The notes below the pieces were generated by a model. That model saw only the letters and a list, made by a program, of their open reading frames with translations, did not search any database and was not told the origin of the DNA. Both the position numbers and the translations under genes were made by a program. A DNA stretch of 22,064 bases from a virus. Below, piece after piece: positions 4,661 to 16,218 of the stretch (the stretch's first letter is position 1; the number at the start of each line of letters is the position of its first letter). The DNA lies in IMG/VR virus record IMGVR_UViG_3300032304_001672, positions 1 through 22,064 of that record; one strand, given 5' to 3'.

Positions 4661-5950
4661 CTATTTTGCAATAATGAATTTACCAGAATCATCTGTTCTG
4701 GAAGTTATGTATTTAAATAATTCTTGTATCAATCTATCTGAGGGTGAAACATAATCTTGTGCATTTGAAATGTTTCTTTTGTTTTTTTCTAACCAATCTA
4801 TAAGTGTAGGAAAAACCTCATTTGTAACCAACATAGCACTTAAAGCACCACGTTCTTGATCAAAATCTGCTCTAGCCATTTTTTTAGCTTCTGGTTTTCT
4901 TAACCTTCTATCTTTTTGTTCCCACTCTTTTCGTAATTTAGTAGCTTGAACTTTATATTTCTCATTACCTCTTTTGTAATCATTAAGAAGTTTTGTAGCC
5001 AACTGTTTGTCGATATATGAAACGATATCACAGAATATATTCCATGATCCAATAGAACCACCTCTTGCCTCCATATCTCTGCTTTCAAATTCTGCTTTCA
5101 TTGTTGCAGTTGAAGCATCGTGTCTAATTTTAATCATTTCACGATCAGATTGGGAAAATTTTATTTGTAGATCTCTAGTTTGTGGTTGGTTTAATGTGTA
5201 TTTTTTCCATGGTTGTTTTAAACCGTGATATTCATATTTTAGTATCGCTGTTTGTTCTTCAACTTTATCGAAATTTACTTTTTTAATTGTAACTGTATTT
5301 GTTTGTTTTTTTAATGATATGGGTAATAGATCTCCTGATGTTATCAGTTCGCTAATCATATTGTTCATGATATCAAAACCATAACTTTTACCACGACCTG
5401 TTACATATAAATCTACATTTTCTTTTATTCTTTTTGAAGCCTTATCTGTAGCGAAATAGATATCGGCTGGCGACCATTTATTAATGTCACCGAATTGTGG
5501 TGCGGCCTTATTTTTATTTGCTTCTTTGAAAAGTGACTCAATATTTTTCATAATCATTTTGTCACCACGATAGTACCAAACATCACTAATGTTAGGTTTT
5601 TTGGCAAATCCAGTTGAGATGGTGGTTATATCTTCTACTAATTTTTTACCAATCAATGCAGAAGAAATGTACCATGTTTTTTCTGTTATTAAAAAACCTT
5701 CTATATCACCGTAAGGAATTTTTTGAGCTCCAGTTGAAGCTTCAGTAAATTTATCGTATATGAATTGTAATGAATCATTCTTTGCCTTGAAAGCACTTTT
5801 CCATTTTTTGTCAAATTTGGAAAACTCATCCAATTCTTTATTTTTTGGATCTAAGAATTCGCCTAAGCTTTTTCCTTTGATTTGCAAATAATCTGCAATC
5901 GCACAAAAGAAAGCTTGTGATGATTCAGCTAGTGAGGTAGTATCGGCCAT
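4661..5950 (-). CDS. Unknown 429-aa protein with a PADI...SLKK signature
   Basis: I do not recognise this protein as a named family. It is soluble and lysine-rich, with no signal or membrane segment. The middle holds NKWSPADIYFATDKASK (about residues 156-172) and, 40 residues on, GDLLPISLKKQ. A D at the end of a strand followed later by S-L-K-K resembles the D...(E/S)xK core of some PD-(D/E)XK nuclease-fold proteins, but the usual glutamate is missing, so the resemblance is only suggestive. The C-terminal third is basic and predicted helical (RKEWEQKDRRLRKPEAKKMA). No clear Shine-Dalgarno precedes ATG 5950. A GATAAATA box lies 17 bases upstream of the ATG, so the gene may have its own late transcription, with a short leader. 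Confidence 0.75.
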   Translation of the reverse strand: MADTTSLAESSQAFFCAIADYLQIKGKSLGEFLDPKNKELDEFSKFDKKWKSAFKAKNDSLQFIYDKFTEASTGAQKIPYGDIEGFLITEKTWYISSALIGKKLVEDITTISTGFAKKPNISDVWYYRGDKMIMKNIESLFKEANKNKAAPQFGDINKWSPADIYFATDKASKRIKENVDLYVTGRGKSYGFDIMNNMISELITSGDLLPISLKKQTNTVTIKKVNFDKVEEQTAILKYEYHGLKQPWKKYTLNQPQTRDLQIKFSQSDREMIKIRHDASTATMKAEFESRDMEARGGSIGSWNIFCDIVSYIDKQLATKLLNDYKRGNEKYKVQATKLRKEWEQKDRRLRKPEAKKMARADFDQERGALSAMLVTNEVFPTLIDWLEKNKRNISNAQDYVSPSDRLIQELFKYITSRTDDSGKFIIAK

Positions 5951-7074: not shown

Positions 7075-8462
7075 ACTTTGAATCCTTGAAAGCTTTTCTT
7101 TTCACCATTACCAAAAGTATTGATAGGTTTGTCTTGGCCTTTATGACCAGCATCAACAATATTATTTTGTGCAGCCTGTTCAATATCAAATAACTTCATT
7201 TTTGCTCTGTCGATACCAACAGTAAATCTCTTATGAAATGTTGGATCATTATAACGATTCTTCAATTGTTTCACCATAATTTGGCCAAGTTGGTCCAAAT
7301 CTTCAGATGAAATCAAAGCAAACATTAAGTCCGCTGTCGCAGGTAAGCCAAACGATTCTGAAGTATCTTCCAGTCCCGGATCACTTGATGTATACCCGCT
7401 TCTAGTGGTTTGGGTCGCACTAACAATAGGTACATTGAATTCCACAGCCAGTCCCCGTAACTCCTCAGCAATTGCTTTGACATAGGTGTACGAGTTAATA
7501 GAAGCGCCAGGTTTAATCCTAGCAGAACAGCAAATATTAAGGTAGTCAATAAAAATAATATCGGGAACAAAAGAACGCTTAAGATTAAGTTCATTTAGTA
7601 GAGTTCTGAAGTGAATTACTGAAGCTGATGCGGTTGGATATTCTTTGATGATTAGTTTGCCGGTCGTTTTATCTCGAACACGAGCGACCTTCTTATCATA
7701 TATATCTTTCGGCAATTCTTGAAGATCACCGATATCAACATTTAAAAGATTTGCATCAATACGTTCTGCAATCTTTTCTTCAGACATCTCTAACGTGAGG
7801 TAAAGAACATTTTTACCTTGAACCATACAGCCAGCGGCAACATGGCACATAAAAAGAGACTTGCCAACACCAGTGCCAGCAAGGGCAATATTAAGAGTTT
7901 TGTTTGGAAGGCCACCTTTTGTAATCTTGTTAAAATATTCAAGATCAAATGGGATTCTTTCTTCTTTTCTGTGATAAAATTCGAATCGGTCATCAGAGTT
8001 CTCCAAATAGTCATGCCCAACAGAATTATCAAAACTTACCGATAAGGCGTCCGATAATATCTTGGGAATCTGACCTTTGTCGTGTTGTTTGTCTTTGCCA
8101 TCGAGAATAGAAATAGACCCAAGTACTGCGTTGTATATTGCTTTCTCTTGACAAAACTTTTCGGTTTTATCAACAAGCCATTGAATTTCGGTACTTGTTT
8201 CTTTATTATCTTGTATTTCTTTGAGATAATCCTCACATCTCTGTACTTCATCATCTGTGAGATTAGTCTTTTCTTTGACGGCAATACTAAGTGCTTCAAT
8301 TGTTGGCGAGCTATTGTAAGTTTGAGTGAATGATGTAATTTCATTGTAGATTACCTTTTCGGCATTCGTTGTAAAATACTCTTTCTTTAAAAATGGTAAT
8401 ACTTTTCTTAGATAATCCTCATTAAACACCAGGTTTTTCAGTATCGTTTGTTCCAACTTCAT
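7071..8462 (-). CDS. 41: Replicative DNA helicase, T4 gp41 (DnaB-like)
   Basis: A RecA-fold hexameric helicase that unwinds the fork 5'-3' with the polymerase and primase. The N-terminal helical domain starts MKLEQTILKNLVFNEDYL. The Walker A is LAGTGVGKS (about residues 194-202 from the chosen start), LYLTLEMSEEKIAERIDANL is the DnaB-type H1a region, FIDYLNIC is Walker B, and VSATQTTRSGY is the H3 sensor. Length, about 463 residues, is close to T4 gp41 (475). Two adjacent ATGs occur; I choose 8462 because GAGGA lies 5 bases upstream, against 2 for the ATG at 8465. The gene overlaps the upstream gene by 41 bases and the DruA-like gene by 4. No separate loader (gp59) is seen here. Confidence 0.95.
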   Translation of the reverse strand: MKLEQTILKNLVFNEDYLRKVLPFLKKEYFTTNAEKVIYNEITSFTQTYNSSPTIEALSIAVKEKTNLTDDEVQRCEDYLKEIQDNKETSTEIQWLVDKTEKFCQEKAIYNAVLGSISILDGKDKQHDKGQIPKILSDALSVSFDNSVGHDYLENSDDRFEFYHRKEERIPFDLEYFNKITKGGLPNKTLNIALAGTGVGKSLFMCHVAAGCMVQGKNVLYLTLEMSEEKIAERIDANLLNVDIGDLQELPKDIYDKKVARVRDKTTGKLIIKEYPTASASVIHFRTLLNELNLKRSFVPDIIFIDYLNICCSARIKPGASINSYTYVKAIAEELRGLAVEFNVPIVSATQTTRSGYTSSDPGLEDTSESFGLPATADLMFALISSEDLDQLGQIMVKQLKNRYNDPTFHKRFTVGIDRAKMKLFDIEQAAQNNIVDAGHKGQDKPINTFGNGEKKSFQGFKV

Positions 8463-8760
8463 CATTGTCCTCAATTTTCATAGCTAATAGATGTACCAAA
8501 AAGTCTCCGACATATTTGATAAAATCCGAATCTTTTTGTAATTTTTTTGGCTTTGTATCTTTACATTCTATCACATCAAAAGCAAATTGTAAATGAGCAG
8601 CATCATCTTTTTCTTCAATTTTTATTTTACCATACCTAATAGTGGTATCTGCATATTTGCCTTTTAAGAATTTAATGTGTACAGATTGTGTATCATTGGT
8701 TGGTGTTTGAAAAGAATAATCAATACCAACAACCATACTGTTTGAATAATCATCACTCAT
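8422..8760 (-). CDS. Small unknown protein between uvsX and 41
   Basis: A 112-residue acidic protein without membrane segments. It has an N-terminal MSDDYSNSMVVGIDYSF, a middle that looks like beta strands (VHIKFLKGKYADTTIRYGKIKIEEKDDAAHL), and a C-terminal helix (FIKYVGDFLVHLLAMKIE) with an acidic tail. The position between uvsX and 41 is that of T4 gene 40, but I see no convincing similarity to gp40. The ATG at 8760 overlaps the uvsX stop by 8 bases; the longer reading from 8772 lies wholly inside uvsX. Its 3' end overlaps helicase 41 by 41 bases, so the two are probably translated in a coupled way. Confidence 0.7.
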   Translation of the reverse strand: MSDDYSNSMVVGIDYSFQTPTNDTQSVHIKFLKGKYADTTIRYGKIKIEEKDDAAHLQFAFDVIECKDTKPKKLQKDSDFIKYVGDFLVHLLAMKIEDNDEVGTNDTEKPGV

Positions 8761-9835
8761 CCGTATCACCATTTATCGTTGCAACTTCAAATGCTTCATC
8801 AACATCTTCATTCTTAATAATATCTGTTGCTGCTACACGATATTTCTTTTCGACAAATTCACGGAACTTTTTGTCTTTTAATATTGACATCCAAAAGTCT
8901 TTACTGTCAACTTCTTTGATTCTATATTTCTTATCTTCAATTTCACCAGTTTTTACATCAACCTTACTGTACCAACCGTTGGATGGCTTAATAACGTGGC
9001 CAGATTCGAGTGCAATATCAAGTAAACCAGACCAACGGCTAATGCCGCCGTCAAAAGATACAGTAACGGGAATTTTAGATTTTTCTTTAACATAACGAGA
9101 TTTTTCAACATTGATAATAAAGTTGTAACCGACAATTTCTGTTCCTTCCTTTTCTTGTTGTCGCCCAATAATAAAAATATTATCGGCAGAATAATACGAA
9201 CCTGTTCCACCACCAACAATATCTTTTGGAAACATACCAATTTCTTTGTAAGTATGATTAACAACAATCATTGGTATGTCTTTCAATGATAAGTGTGGTG
9301 TGACCATACGAAATAAACTTTTAACTTGTTTTGCACGGGACATATCTGCAACAGATTTTTGTTCTAAGGCATCTTCAACTTCTTTTTTAGATGCTAGATT
9401 ACCAATCGAATCAACAACAATAATCAACCTGTCTCCACGCTCGAGATTGGTTAACTGTTGCATGATATCAAATTTTAATTGCTCAATGTCGGTAATAGGA
9501 GTGTGCAGAACACGATTAGTGTCAATACCAAAGCTGTCAAAGTAGGATTGAGGAGTACCAAATTCTGAATCATAGAATAAAAGCGCTGCATCATTATATT
9601 TCTCCAAATAAGATTTTGCCATCAATAATGAAAATGCGGTCTTAAAATGTTTTGATGGACCTGCCCACATTGTAAGACCTGGTGTTAAACCGCCATCCAA
9701 TTTACCACTAAGTGCCACATTAACAATTGGCACAGAAGTAGGAATCATATCTTTCTCAGTAAAGAATTTTGATTTCGCTAGAATAGAAGAATCTTTGATA
9801 CTACTATTCTTTTTAATTTTGTCAAGTATTCCCAT
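8753..9835 (-). CDS. uvsX: RecA-like recombinase UvsX
   Basis: This strand-exchange protein drives recombination-dependent replication and repair in T4-like phages. Walker A is GPSKHFKT (residues 59-66), the UvsX form of the P-loop. LLFYDSEFGTPQSYF follows, with the catalytic acidic residues; LIIVVDSIGNL is Walker B; and MIVVNHTYKEIGMFPKDIVGGGTG includes the L2 DNA-binding loop region. At 360 residues it is slightly shorter than T4 UvsX (about 390) and ends in a short acidic tail (INGDTDE). The start at 9835 has AAAGGTGA 4 bases upstream. It sits between a membrane protein gene and the gene preceding helicase 41. Confidence 0.95.
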   Translation of the reverse strand: MGILDKIKKNSSIKDSSILAKSKFFTEKDMIPTSVPIVNVALSGKLDGGLTPGLTMWAGPSKHFKTAFSLLMAKSYLEKYNDAALLFYDSEFGTPQSYFDSFGIDTNRVLHTPITDIEQLKFDIMQQLTNLERGDRLIIVVDSIGNLASKKEVEDALEQKSVADMSRAKQVKSLFRMVTPHLSLKDIPMIVVNHTYKEIGMFPKDIVGGGTGSYYSADNIFIIGRQQEKEGTEIVGYNFIINVEKSRYVKEKSKIPVTVSFDGGISRWSGLLDIALESGHVIKPSNGWYSKVDVKTGEIEDKKYRIKEVDSKDFWMSILKDKKFREFVEKKYRVAATDIIKNEDVDEAFEVATINGDTDE

Positions 9836-10853: not shown

Positions 10854-13393
10854 GAGAAAAAGTCCTCTAAAGAATTAGTTTTCTCTACTGCCCAGCCGAC
10901 AAGGTTTAAAATTGTTTTAATTGGTTCTAAGAATGTTTTCTCAAACTGCAAATCATAATCAATGAATTCTTGTATACCAAATTCAGGAGGCAATCTTGAA
11001 GGATAAGAAATCACAGTATCTTTAAATGGATTTGGCATCTTTAGATATGTGAATTTCAATTTATCACCATCTTGAACAAACGGATATTTCTTCGTTAATT
11101 TCTTTTCTTTTAGAAAGTGATTGTAGAGTATCGCACCCTTAACATGAATGGGTGTTCCTTTCTTATATAGTGTAAGTGAATCGGAGTAATTACTTAGACC
11201 GTTACATCCTCTCGGAAAAGATACTTCTTCAGCCGGCAAACTATTAAAGTGCTTTCTAAAATCTTCAATATAATCGTGTAACTCAGATTCGGTGCCTGTT
11301 ATGATTAGTTTAATAGTTTCTTTCATCCTCTCACGAATTATAGCCGGCGTAGAAGATTTTACCATTTCTAAGCCCATGACTTTCATCTTAGGCTCTTTGT
11401 ATTGCACACCCTCATTATTATAAACATTTAGTACATATCGTTTCTTAGCAGTCCATAAACCTCTACTTGCAAGTGCTTCTCGCTTCATTTCCATTTTCTG
11501 TTGATAAGCGTGAACATAATCAGCAAGTTCCTGATAACTCTTGTCAATGTACGGCTGAATTTTATCTTCACAGACCTTGTCCATGAAGGAGATGACTTTC
11601 GCATGATCTTCGCTTCCAGAGCGAAAGACAGAATCCACCAACGATGCAAGATTGAGATAAATCGAATCAGTATCGGACGCAATGACATAATCTTCTTCCG
11701 TTTTTAATAGTTTATTGAGATATTCATTTAACTTATTTTCAATCCAACGAATCGATAATTGGCCAGCCAATGTAACTGCAAGAGCCATTCGTAGATCATA
11801 GAATCTGAAGTATTGTGAACCAAGAGCACCATAAGCAGAGTTCAACGAAACTTTTTTAGCCAATTGAATATTGTTATACTTAGCAATTTTCTTTTCTAAT
11901 TCTTTTTTCTTTTCTGCATCTGTTTCGTTTTGATATTCTTGTTGTGCAGCCAACATAAACTTTTTAAACTTTTTACGGTCTTGATACATTTCTTCCATCA
12001 TCTTAGGCAAGAAACCTTGAAAATCAGTTCTAAAGAATTGACCGTTCGGTGTTAATGTTGCTCCTTTTAGATTCGAGGTGTCAATCTGCGATTTCAAAAG
12101 TTTATCAACTGTAATACCTTGAGATAATACATCACGCATCTCTTGTGTGTAATTTTGTGGTTCAATCAAAGTTTCAGGAGATATATTATACTGCATCATC
12201 AAATGTGGATATAGACTGTTCAAATCGAATGATGCAACCCACTTGTGTAAGCCTGTTTGTGGTTCTTTAACATATGCACCCTCAAATGCAGAATCTTTAT
12301 CTTTAACGATTCTTGGTGGAACAATAATTTTTTTCTCCAACAAATAAGAATATGTTAGAGAATCCCACATACGAGTTTGTGCAAATACATCTTCATAATT
12401 TGTCTTAGTGTCATATGCAAGAGTTACTGCCAACTCCAACAATTTTAACTTATCTTCCAACTTCAATATGAGATCAACGTCTTTGATGTTATATTCAATA
12501 AATTTTTGATAGTTGAGTTTGTATAATTGGTGTAAACTATCATACTCATCATACGACAATTTCTTTTCGCCTAATTCTACATTGGCAATATTATCGAGTT
12601 TGTAGGATTCTTGTGACTTGCCTCCTGGTGCATACCATTTGTACAGTTCGATATAATCAAGTGAAGCTAGACCAACCAACTCATATGCAATTAATTGTCT
12701 GCCATTAATAACAGTAGTTCTTTCGTTGATTCTATTCCAAGGCGACAACTTCTTACAGTCATCTTCGCCTAGAATTTTTTTGAATCGATTTATCAAATAA
12801 GGCACATCAAAGAACTTTGTATTCCAGCCAGTTATGATGTCTGGTGTTTTCTCTGACCACATCCTAAGAAAATGTTTACACAACGACCATTCATCTTTAC
12901 ACTTATGATATGTGACATTTTCTGGATCATTATTCTCATATGAACCACAACCATAAACATATTTGTGTCCGTTGATATAGTGAATAGCAATAGCTGTGAT
13001 TGGTTCATTTGCTTCGTATGGATCAGGGAAACCATTTTCTGATCCGACCTCAATATCAATAATTGCAATTTCTAATTTATCGAAATCGTAGTCAATCATG
13101 CCTTGGTGTTGATCAGCAATAAAGGCATATTCGAAACGAGTTTGTCCATAGATTTTAGGACCATTGGAAACACCATCAAACTGTTTGATATAATCTCTGG
13201 CTTCTTTCATTGTGCCAAAGATTTTTTGATCTAGATAATCACCATCTAGTGATGTGAAGTTTGTGATGCGTTTGGATGGGATATAGAGTGAAGGAGAATA
13301 TTCAACTCTCTGCTTCACTCTTTTTCCGTTCTGTATACCTCTGTACAGTATGTTACTGCCAAAGGTTTGAACATTAGTGTAAAATGTTTTCAT
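10850..13393 (-). CDS. 43: Family B DNA polymerase, T4 gp43
   Basis: The replicative polymerase with proofreading. The exonuclease domain has Exo I AIIDIEV (D113, E115; T4 has D112, E114), Exo II GWNTKFFDVPYL and Exo III YNIKDVDL. The palm has motif A DLNSLYPHLMMQYNISPETL, motif B KKVSLNSAYGALG and motif C ASDTDSIYLNL with both catalytic aspartates. The C-terminus ends NSLEDFFS, a probable sliding-clamp-binding peptide. Length is 847 residues against 898 in T4, and all catalytic motifs are intact. The gene overlaps its neighbours on both sides by ATGA. In T4, gene 43 follows regA directly; here it has been separated from regA by about 5 kb. Confidence 0.97.
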   Translation of the reverse strand: MKTFYTNVQTFGSNILYRGIQNGKRVKQRVEYSPSLYIPSKRITNFTSLDGDYLDQKIFGTMKEARDYIKQFDGVSNGPKIYGQTRFEYAFIADQHQGMIDYDFDKLEIAIIDIEVGSENGFPDPYEANEPITAIAIHYINGHKYVYGCGSYENNDPENVTYHKCKDEWSLCKHFLRMWSEKTPDIITGWNTKFFDVPYLINRFKKILGEDDCKKLSPWNRINERTTVINGRQLIAYELVGLASLDYIELYKWYAPGGKSQESYKLDNIANVELGEKKLSYDEYDSLHQLYKLNYQKFIEYNIKDVDLILKLEDKLKLLELAVTLAYDTKTNYEDVFAQTRMWDSLTYSYLLEKKIIVPPRIVKDKDSAFEGAYVKEPQTGLHKWVASFDLNSLYPHLMMQYNISPETLIEPQNYTQEMRDVLSQGITVDKLLKSQIDTSNLKGATLTPNGQFFRTDFQGFLPKMMEEMYQDRKKFKKFMLAAQQEYQNETDAEKKKELEKKIAKYNNIQLAKKVSLNSAYGALGSQYFRFYDLRMALAVTLAGQLSIRWIENKLNEYLNKLLKTEEDYVIASDTDSIYLNLASLVDSVFRSGSEDHAKVISFMDKVCEDKIQPYIDKSYQELADYVHAYQQKMEMKREALASRGLWTAKKRYVLNVYNNEGVQYKEPKMKVMGLEMVKSSTPAIIRERMKETIKLIITGTESELHDYIEDFRKHFNSLPAEEVSFPRGCNGLSNYSDSLTLYKKGTPIHVKGAILYNHFLKEKKLTKKYPFVQDGDKLKFTYLKMPNPFKDTVISYPSRLPPEFGIQEFIDYDLQFEKTFLEPIKTILNLVGWAVEKTNSLEDFFS

Positions 13394-15067: not shown

Positions 15068-15538
15068 TTATGCCATGTTTAAAGTTTTTAATCTATCAGC
15101 CGCATATGATGCCGCAAAGGCTTGAGGTTTGACCATTGGTATGACATTACAGGTACCACGAATATAACCAATGGCTTCGTTGATAACACAATTTGAACCG
15201 TGCATTTCATTTGGATTAATGTCCAGATGAACTTCAACATCACGACCTTCTAAAACATCTGCAAGTTTTAAATATAAATCACTTACACGATAAACTTCAT
15301 TCATCAATCGATATCTTGGACGATTTTGTTTTTGATCATAATCTTTTTCACGGTACACTTCACCAAACAATTTGCATCCGTGTTTTCCATCAATATGAAT
15401 TACAATTGCTAGAACATAATCTGCGTACCACACTTTATCAATCTTGAATCTTTCAGAATCACAACCAATATAAATTTTTGTTTCTGCACTTTGGTTTTCA
15501 ATAAAGTTTTTTACTTCTTCAAGATTGATTTTTTTCAT
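15068..15538 (-). CDS. YkuK-like (DUF458) RNase H-fold protein
   Basis: The pattern matches the DUF458/YkuK family, predicted RNase H-like: IYIGCDSERF (first strand with the DS acid), ADYVLAIVIHIDGKHGCKLF, RPRYRLMNEVYRVSDLYLKLAD (helix with R and E), VEVHLDINPNE (second acidic strand), and IGYIRGTCNVIPMVKPQAFAASYAAD. The activity is not established; nucleic acid processing is likely. It is full length at 156 residues. The start at 15538 has AAGGTGA 5 bases upstream. A tandem 50-bp duplication covers its ribosome site and first 12 codons, so a copy of both lies just upstream as a short leader ORF. Confidence 0.8.
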   Translation of the reverse strand: MKKINLEEVKNFIENQSAETKIYIGCDSERFKIDKVWYADYVLAIVIHIDGKHGCKLFGEVYREKDYDQKQNRPRYRLMNEVYRVSDLYLKLADVLEGRDVEVHLDINPNEMHGSNCVINEAIGYIRGTCNVIPMVKPQAFAASYAADRLKTLNMA

Positions 15539-15602
15539 AAAGTCACCTTTTTAAAGTTTTTTACTTCTTCAAGATTGATTTTTTTCATAAAGTCACCTTT
15601 TT
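15502..15602. repeat. Perfect 50-bp tandem duplication over a gene start
   Basis: Bases 15502-15551 are repeated exactly at 15552-15601, and base 15602 continues the period. On the minus strand each unit contains the Shine-Dalgarno AAGGTGA, ATG and the first 12 codons of the YkuK-like gene. Zero mismatches over 50 bases suggest a recent event or an assembly error. Confidence 0.95.
15535..15588 (-). CDS. 17-codon leader ORF made by the duplication
   Basis: The upstream copy of the repeat gives its own AAGGTGA ribosome site and ATG at 15588. It reads MKKINLEEVKNFKKVTL and then stops at TGA 15537-15535, which overlaps the ATG (15538) of the YkuK-like gene. The first 12 residues are identical to those of the gene it precedes. 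It would be translated with the same efficiency of initiation and could feed ribosomes to the real start by reinitiation. Confidence 0.45.
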   Translation of the reverse strand: MKKINLEEVKNFKKVTL

Positions 15603-15946: not shown

Positions 15947-16024
15947 TGGTCGGAGTAGTAGGATTCGAACCTACGACCCTCTGCTCCCAAAGCAGATGCG
16001 CTAGCCAGGCTGCGCTATACTCCG
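15947..16024 (-). tRNA. tRNA-Pro(UGG)
   Basis: Minus-strand cloverleaf. Acceptor CGGAGTA pairs with TACTCCG; the D arm is GCGC...GCGC; the anticodon arm TCTGC-TTTGGGA-GCAGA carries UGG; the T arm is GTAGG-TTCGAAT-CCTAC. The discriminator is A and CCA is encoded at 15949-15947. It follows the candidate structured RNA and shares promoter P2 with it. Confidence 0.96.
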
Positions 16025-16168
16025 TGTCTGGTGCCTTCATCCGGATTTACAGTCCGGTGCAGTAACCTGTTCTGCTCGCTACCCAATGATAAGGGGCACA
16101 CCAAGCGTTTCCCAACGAGTGGCTGTTGTTTAAGAGTAGGCGTGTCGATGCCGCTCACTCCCCCTTTT
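16025..16168 (-). ncRNA. Candidate structured RNA with a tRNA-Tyr-like 3' part
   Basis: About 144 bases, clearly richer in G+C than the genome, with no ORF and located between P2 and tRNA-Pro. The 5' domain folds as a junction closed by AAGGGG/CCCCTT (16166-16161 with 16096-16091). Inside are a near-continuous 9-bp hairpin (16160-16152 with 16142-16134, one G-U and one A-C) and a hairpin CGTT-GGGA-AACG with a GNRA loop (16117-16106), extended by CCA/TGG. The 3' part looks like the 5' half of tRNA-Tyr: GGGTAGC (16084-16078), a D arm GCAG/CTGC with GGTTA in its loop, and the anticodon arm CCGGA-CTGTAAA-TCCGG (GUA, 16057-16041). A T arm and 3' acceptor strand are absent. It may be a tRNA-Tyr remnant or a distinct RNA. 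Confidence 0.5.
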
Positions 16169-16189
16169 ACTTTTTAAAGAACAAATACA

Positions 16190-16218
16190 ATCATAACATT
16201 GCCACATTAATTTGTCAA
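16190..16218 (-). promoter_or_regulatory. Promoter P2, sigma70 type, for the RNA/tRNA-Pro/YkuK-like unit
   Basis: TTGACA (16218-16213), a 17-base spacer, then TATGAT (16195-16190) on the minus strand. The expected start near 16183 is 15-20 bases before the structured RNA. A terminator for the preceding unit lies just upstream, so this promoter opens a new transcript. Confidence 0.85.

Follow-up and report, generated by a model that had tools for sequence, protein, structure and literature searches.

The minus strand of a 22,064-base viral record (the window, by which the whole stretch of DNA analysed is meant) carries at positions 16090-16164 a 75-nt sequence which, on comparison with its relatives, is a covarying structured RNA. 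Beside it, at 16041-16084 on the same strand, lies the 5' half of a tRNA-Tyr(GUA) gene which, as judged by alignment, is a separate broken gene, a deletion scar. The initial annotation had taken the 144 bases at 16025-16168 as one object; they resolve into these two units plus a 16-nt remnant. That the region holds a structured RNA plus a broken tRNA is almost certain. The RNA matched no described family and is considered a new one, with the reservation that large published candidate lists may contain it.

All parts of the RNA were placed on the minus strand. P1 is formed by GGGG (16161-16164) and CCCC (16093-16096), the latter followed by a UUA tail (16090-16092). The P2 hairpin, GAGUGAGCG-loop-CGCCUACUC, occupies 16134-16160 and the P3 arm (CAACAG...GGUGUG), with a GGGA (GNRA) apical loop, 16097-16128. 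The joint J2/3, UUAAA, lies at 16129-16133 and was the same in 65/65 rows of alignment A4, where it was mostly fixed by the search patterns. The sequence scored 86.5 bits (E 2.1e-18) with covariance model R1 and 74.9 bits with R2, and belongs to the training sets of both. The family architecture is a three-way junction with P1 of the form GGGR/YCCC, P2 closed by GAGU/ACUC-type pairs, J2/3 UUAAA, P3 beginning CR/YG, a KUR tail and variable apical arms. RNA length ranged from 53 to 164 nt across 78 loci, with a minimal form of 53-59 nt. Relative to the window, L093 had 3 differences in the 75 nt, all within the P2 loop, L097 had 4 in the P2 loop, and L002 had 2, one in the P2 loop and one in P1.

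Several elements listed in the initial annotation were recovered on the minus strand, namely the AAGGGG/CCCCTT closing stem, the GGGA (GNRA) hairpin, the D-arm-like hairpin and the GUA anticodon arm. The G+C enrichment was also reproduced (0.535 in 16025-16168 vs 0.342 in the window). The hairpin described as 9 bp was present, but contained one A-C mismatch. No complete tRNA had been claimed for 16025-16168, and neither ARAGORN nor Rfam called one there; the only call adjoining it was tRNA-Pro(UGG) at 15947-16024 (minus strand; ARAGORN, Rfam), the next gene of the unit. ARAGORN found three tRNAs in the whole window.

Family members were collected with sequence patterns and covariance models. 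An initial pattern, comprising both P2 strands with a free loop, gave 17 stretches, of which 6 were known contigs, 5 were new members and 6 were non-members; its new contigs had the same core with quite different flanking genes. Pattern CTACTCTTAAAYRACAG (pattern 1) gave 31 viral-contig stretches, and 31/31 records matched R1, with the architecture also plain by eye. R1 was built from 20 sequences of that set, and because of this the agreement is partly by construction. The same pattern occurred in 19 stretches of the bacterial and archaeal genome collection, of which 0/19 had the RNA architecture (by eye). Two further patterns gave 53 and 42 stretches, yielding 41 and 34 new records; R2 matched 41/41 of the former (42/42 with L150) and 33/34 of the latter. 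Whole viral records matching the covariance models numbered 32/32, 42/42 and 33/34, a total of 107 including the window, some of them near-identical. Patterns had brought up nearly all of the 107 in the first place, and some served as training sequences of the models.

Pattern 1 fixes the P2 3' strand and UUAAA-YRACAG, pattern 2 fixes CUUAAAC-RACAG and GYGCCCCUUA, and pattern 3 fixes UCUUAAAC-RAC and GYCCCKUAG. The constancy of UUAAA is therefore to be read from five members found by model (L150, the second copy in L197 and three other second copies), because the patterns fixed these letters elsewhere; the models also reward UUAAA. Alignment A4 was drawn from 64 sources, after removal of sequences that were near-identical, truncated or wrongly started. 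For counts of position, 78 loci were used. L307, a chance pattern match, was not counted.

The evidence for the fold is comparative; single-sequence energies were unremarkable. In A4 (65 rows, 63 distinct), standard pairs filled 97.7% of pair cells, falling to at most 63.4% when partners were slid by 1-3 columns. Changes on both sides were seen in 8/15 pairs (5.1 in shuffles) and in 86 double-change cells (24.5 in shuffles), with a covariation score of 0.291 (0.137 in shuffles); 0/500 shuffles reached the observed number of double-change pairs or cells or the covariation score. The earlier alignment A2 gave the same picture. The initial annotation had named a lack of compensatory changes as grounds against its structured RNA; in the upstream domain such changes were frequent.

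Because A4 was fitted to the model, members were also split by the pattern that found them. Every P1 cell was paired in the pattern-1 group (n = 21), in which P1 was left free, and P1d had G-C to A-U double changes in 5/21; the split followed locus names, so the second copy in L197 was counted here. In the pattern-2 group (n = 20), where P2 was free save for the closing C, P2c occurred as G-C, G-U, A-U, U-G, C-G and U-A and was paired in 20/20; P2b was unpaired in 2/20 and P2d in 1/20. At P3b, A occurred with U, and G with U or C; A with C was never seen. The 5' letter of P3b was restricted to A or G; for its 3' letter, pattern 2 allowed C or U, and patterns 1 and 3 any base. Three divergent second copies kept UUAAA with P1 and P2 changed, for example to UGGG/CCCA and GAUUUGC/GCAAAUC (by eye). 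Arm length was a few nt at the shortest and over 100 nt at the longest, and several members had GNRA or UNCG-type loops (by eye).

Folding energy was rejected as evidence of structure. The convincing folding described in the initial annotation did not hold when judged by energy, the 151-nt strand giving z = 0.16, with 110/200 shuffles folding at least as well. The RNA domain alone gave z = -1.57 (15/200 shuffles at least as good), and eight members folded individually gave z of -0.6 to -2.8. For two of these eight, L190 and L187, the minimum-energy fold differed from the three-way junction, and RNAalifold with its own prediction on A4 recovered P1 alone.

A GNRA hairpin, GUCGGGAGAC, was noted just upstream of the RNA in L259, L294, L296, L300 and L320 (by eye). 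It lies outside the RNA and is similar, again by eye, to the P3-capping hairpin of some other members.

Close relatives of the window were found via the neighbouring dCMP deaminase and metallopeptidase genes. L002 aligned with the window at 97% from upstream of the promoter, across the RNA, to the anticodon arm; L002 continued with a complete tRNA-Tyr and then a tRNA-Thr (ARAGORN), and its match to the window resumed just before tRNA-Pro. Intact tRNA-Tyr genes were located 6 nt after the RNA in six related contigs (L002, L092, L093, L094, L095 and L097). The half gene in the window retains the acceptor 5' strand, D arm and anticodon arm and is collinear with its intact orthologues; 44/44 nt agree with L002 and L093, and the deletion starts where the anticodon arm ends. 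The T arm and 3' acceptor strand of a functional tRNA-Tyr are deleted. Approximately 120 nt of L002 are missing, and ATGAA is joined to GGCACCA, the remnant of the tRNA-Thr end; the whole junction, ATGAA + GGCACCAGACA, spans 16025-16040 (minus strand; alignment with L002) and includes remnants of the tRNA-Thr 3' end and spacer. By this alignment, a deletion fused the tRNA-Tyr 5' half to the CCA end of the tRNA-Thr that followed it. The suggestion in the initial annotation of a decayed tRNA-Tyr fused to another RNA is thus borne out by the six contigs with an intact gene at the same place.

Its other suggestion, a half-tRNA mimic that binds tyrosyl-tRNA synthetase or acts as a processing guide, fared badly, the half tRNA being found in the window alone among the 7 contigs compared. 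That the whole 144 nt would be a single tRNA-Tyr mimic, or mere decay, is scarcely credible: the sequences of the D arm and anticodon arm are undamaged, but a complete tRNA-Tyr stands at the same place in the six relatives, and covariation of the RNA domain extends to lineages in which the nearby tRNAs are others or absent. A permuted-tRNA reading of the upstream domain, in which CUACUC could pair with GGGUAG (by eye), was dropped because the relatives hold an intact tRNA-Tyr. No further decay was seen in the tRNA-Tyr half, from which the deletion would be recent, or possibly an assembly fault of this metagenomic contig. A perfect tandem duplication of period 50, in two copies, was also observed at 15502-15602, over the start of ORF 15068-15538; like the tRNA deletion, it is either recent or an assembly fault.

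The proteins of the window include a dCMP deaminase, a clamp loader and an Hsp20 (PHROGs). The nearest named phages to the clamp loader, at approximately 60% identity, were mostly marine (pelagiphage, cyanophages, methylophages), together with one Stenotrophomonas phage. A T4-type capsid gene was present in 6/39 records, the records being fragments. In the collections searched, the RNA family is viral. No match was obtained in a sample of 369 bacterial genomes from the class of Thalassotalea marina (Gammaproteobacteria); stricter filters were used there, in a search that lacked a positive control, and this is weak evidence. R2 was also run on 152 loci reached via the two genes flanking the RNA, many of them too short to reach the place, and the RNA was found in L150 only; the same search took in 11 unrelated loci. 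None of 49 whole related records had the RNA.

At E<=0.1, 101/107 records had one match and 6 had two (G026, G029, G503, G507, G508 and G510), three of the six second matches being weak (E 0.004-0.008). One copy is a lower bound, because divergent copies may escape the models and each of the records is a fragment. A tRNA on the same strand lay within 100 nt of the RNA in 43/78 loci, and on both sides in 20/78. Where a tRNA was within 20 nt, the gap was 7-14 nt for upstream tRNAs (25 loci) and 4-19 nt for downstream tRNAs (29 loci). In 27 of the other 35 loci, an ORF (60 aa or longer) stopped 8-21 nt before the RNA began. The RNA was overlain by an ORF of this size on the same strand in 7/78 loci. 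The loci held up to 29 tRNAs, and the genes flanking the RNA varied between them. A gene-specific cis switch is disfavoured because the neighbouring genes differ.

The initial annotation reported a strong promoter, and a sigma70-type TTGACA-17-TATGAT (11/12 matches) was indeed located upstream at 16190-16218, minus strand. It is followed by 25 nt, including a boxA-like stretch, and then by the 16025-16168 region. The scan for promoters and terminators covered the surroundings of the window copy. The promoter hexamers and spacing were also present in L002, L094, L095 and L286, and were more diverged in L093 and L097 (by eye). The 13-mer TGTTCTTTAAAAA, at 16171-16183 (minus strand), appears similar to a boxA antitermination sequence. 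It occurred within 90 nt upstream of the RNA in 8/78 loci (the window, L002, L093, L094, L095, L097, L286 and L290).

This setting would suit a cis-acting element, that is, an antitermination, transcript-stabilising or processing leader of the tRNA unit comparable to boxA/nut or put sites. The window copy may be compared with such a leader, as it comes early after a strong promoter and has letters of its own, CUUAAACRACA, that appear similar to a boxA core. The orientation is in keeping with it, as ARAGORN made 803 tRNA/tmRNA calls on the strand of the RNA and 0 on the opposite strand in the 78 loci (near-identical loci counted separately). Unlike boxA/nut and put sites, the RNA is closely flanked by tRNAs in 20/78 loci and has inconstant flanking genes; the 13-mer is missing from the other 70/78 loci, and the RNA's boxA-like letters are partly paired in P2 and P3. 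In the window the RNA would stand at the start of a transcription unit, and in 20/78 loci it has tRNAs within 100 nt on both sides. As an account of the family, a cis-acting element is unlikely, although a cis antitermination role may apply in the window lineage because of the boxA-like sequence and the first position in the unit.

A new self-cleaving ribozyme that separates transcripts would have a precedent in the theta ribozymes, HDV-like RNAs described beside phage tRNAs (PMC10879173). They too are small structured phage RNAs adjoining tRNAs, and a compact junction with a constant unpaired joint and tRNA neighbours is what a ribozyme might look like. The RNA is, however, a nested three-way junction in which no HDV pseudoknot was recognised by eye, it matched no Rfam ribozyme family, and it occurs mostly as one copy though loci reach 29 tRNAs. 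Its spacing is not flush either. Of the tRNA-associated theta ribozymes, 77% are reported to lie within 1 nt of the tRNA (PMC10879173), against a gap of 7-14 nt after the tRNA in the 25 loci here; if cleavage is assumed to occur at the 5' end of the RNA, this gap is wider than the distance of about 1-5 nt from the tRNA 3' end expected of theta cleavage. A self-cleaving ribozyme is accordingly rated a distinctly unlikely reading.

A riboswitch-like aptamer might likewise combine variable arms with a constant joint in a three-way junction. We consider it very improbable: the RNA has no constant downstream gene, tRNAs stand within 100 nt on both sides in 20/78 loci, and an unsystematic look noticed no expression platform.

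The initial annotation called the RNA uncharacterised, and this has held. An Rfam covariance search of 16025-16168 gave no match at the gathering threshold or at E<=5, and none of the 4227 families of Rfam 15 matched the RNA in the loci searched (eleven loci were searched at gathering score, the region in the window at E<=5, six loci at E<=3, and L187 and L304 at E<=2). The sole match touching the RNA was GHRLOS, at its edge in L304, at chance level (11.3 bits against a cut-off of 48, E 0.57). No published description of the motif was found in a literature search by titles and abstract openings that covered few subscription papers. Fremin et al. have reportedly published a long list of candidate structured RNAs from viruses and phages, which may include this family. 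Newness refers here to the RNA family; phage RNAs near tRNAs to which no function is assigned are a known setting.

Within that setting, GOLLD (RF02032) and ROOL are likewise phage-borne structured RNAs, described as lacking a known function and as often lying near tRNA islands (PMC12286853). They differ in being hundreds of nt long and forming nanocages, in contrast to the 53-164 nt of the present RNA. The GOLLD model had no match in the window; in L268 it matched at 8336-8801 and not at the RNA (4754-4846). This GOLLD match (plus strand) overlaps a tRNA-Ile; the new RNA is present in the same contig. The stable RNAs C and D of T4 (species 1 and 2) are similarly small stable RNAs beside a tRNA cluster according to the record notes, a comparison of manner of working only. 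In the 7-kb T4 tRNA region, the best R1 match (9.8 bits, E 0.18) fell outside rnaC and rnaD, and R2 had no match at E<=1.

Searches of named phages gave no member. Blastn with five members returned nothing credible (weak negatives, the queries being short). One candidate from a Lactobacillus phage, matching the L257 core at 23/23 nt (E 0.03), was rejected; it lies within a tape-measure gene and scored 5.3 bits with R2 (E 0.26). R2 had no match at E<=1 in the whole genome of phage Melnitz, and tblastn with the gene upstream of the RNA in L257 found no named phage.

A second recurring structured RNA was observed in the fetched loci, with the core UACUGUGACCCGCAGGA...GGGUGGU...ACCGAAAGGC CGCUGGCAAUGC. 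It was aligned (A5) from L016 2479-2639 (plus strand), L027 7143-7303 (plus strand) and further loci (L145, L147, L149, L166, L174, L186, L187, L192-L194, L197, L199, L258, L286 and L311). A regular expression applied to the fetched loci gave 20 distinct sequences, and for 12 of these the first RNA was present in the same contig. RNAalifold on 17 sequences gave 25 pairs, of which 14 had double changes. No Rfam match at E<=2 was obtained for L155 6370-6640 or L258 12950-13110. By blastn against named phages, the best 15 of 45 records matched the neighbouring tRNA-Thr alone.

Permuted (two-piece) tmRNA genes were also noted by ARAGORN a few kb downstream of the RNA, in L252, L257, L258, L260, L261, L263, L266, L267, L270, L272, L274, L281, L282, L288, L289, L291 and L185; the betaproteobacterial Rfam model matched those that were checked. 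Two-piece tmRNAs of aquatic phages have already been described (PMC9004378). Beta-type tmRNA (E<1e-20) was found in 28/47 RNA-bearing records (25 above the Rfam cut-off) vs 6/49 related records that lack the RNA, the 47 being a non-random set, of which 36 were picked since their loci lacked or seemed to lack tRNAs (14 of those 36 had tRNAs elsewhere in the record). Fragment length and lineage explain much of this contrast, because all 5 of the 49 RNA-less records longer than 130 kb have beta-type tmRNA. A functional link between the RNA and tmRNA is not claimed, given this effect and the choice of the 47. In L255, a contig that also has the new RNA, a group I intron match was noted near tRNAs (13185-13378, minus strand).

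Taken together, the explanation we offer is that of an accessory phage structured RNA, processed and trans-acting, beside a separate broken tRNA-Tyr; as a whole it is on balance probable, if only just. On this explanation, 16090-16164 would be a gene for a small structured noncoding RNA with a constant core and variable apical arms, which phages would carry as an accessory gene, mostly in single copy, on the same strand as tRNA arrays and often inside them. Host tRNA-processing nucleases would most likely cut it from the tRNA precursor, RNase P cutting at the 5' end of the next tRNA and 3'-end nucleases acting after the preceding one. The freed RNA would persist as a stable RNA and, in the course of infection, may act in trans on a target of the host or of the phage. 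A trans-acting accessory RNA fits better than a gene-specific switch because of the copy number of about one, the changing neighbours and the patchy occurrence. Processing, stability and trans action are what we infer from sequence, and on these the balance tilts slightly against. A cis role may apply in the CDS contexts because no obvious processing enzyme is at hand there. Only tentatively, and with somewhat less confidence again, may the RNA be proposed as a previously undescribed class. Its members would share a compact three-way junction built round a UUAAA core, would have spread in large aquatic phages as a movable tRNA-array gene, and would either cleave themselves or bind and reprogram a conserved part of the machinery of host translation or RNA processing.

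For the reading of viral genomes, the case illustrates how an eye-catching 'half tRNA' may turn out to be a deletion scar, with the feature of real interest next to it. Besides tRNAs and tmRNAs, large phages carry a few structured RNAs. The clear covarying core, more than 100 examples and a minimal form of 53-59 nt make the present family a convenient object for synthesis, probing, cleavage assays and bait experiments. The role of tRNA-array RNAs for phages would thereby become directly testable.
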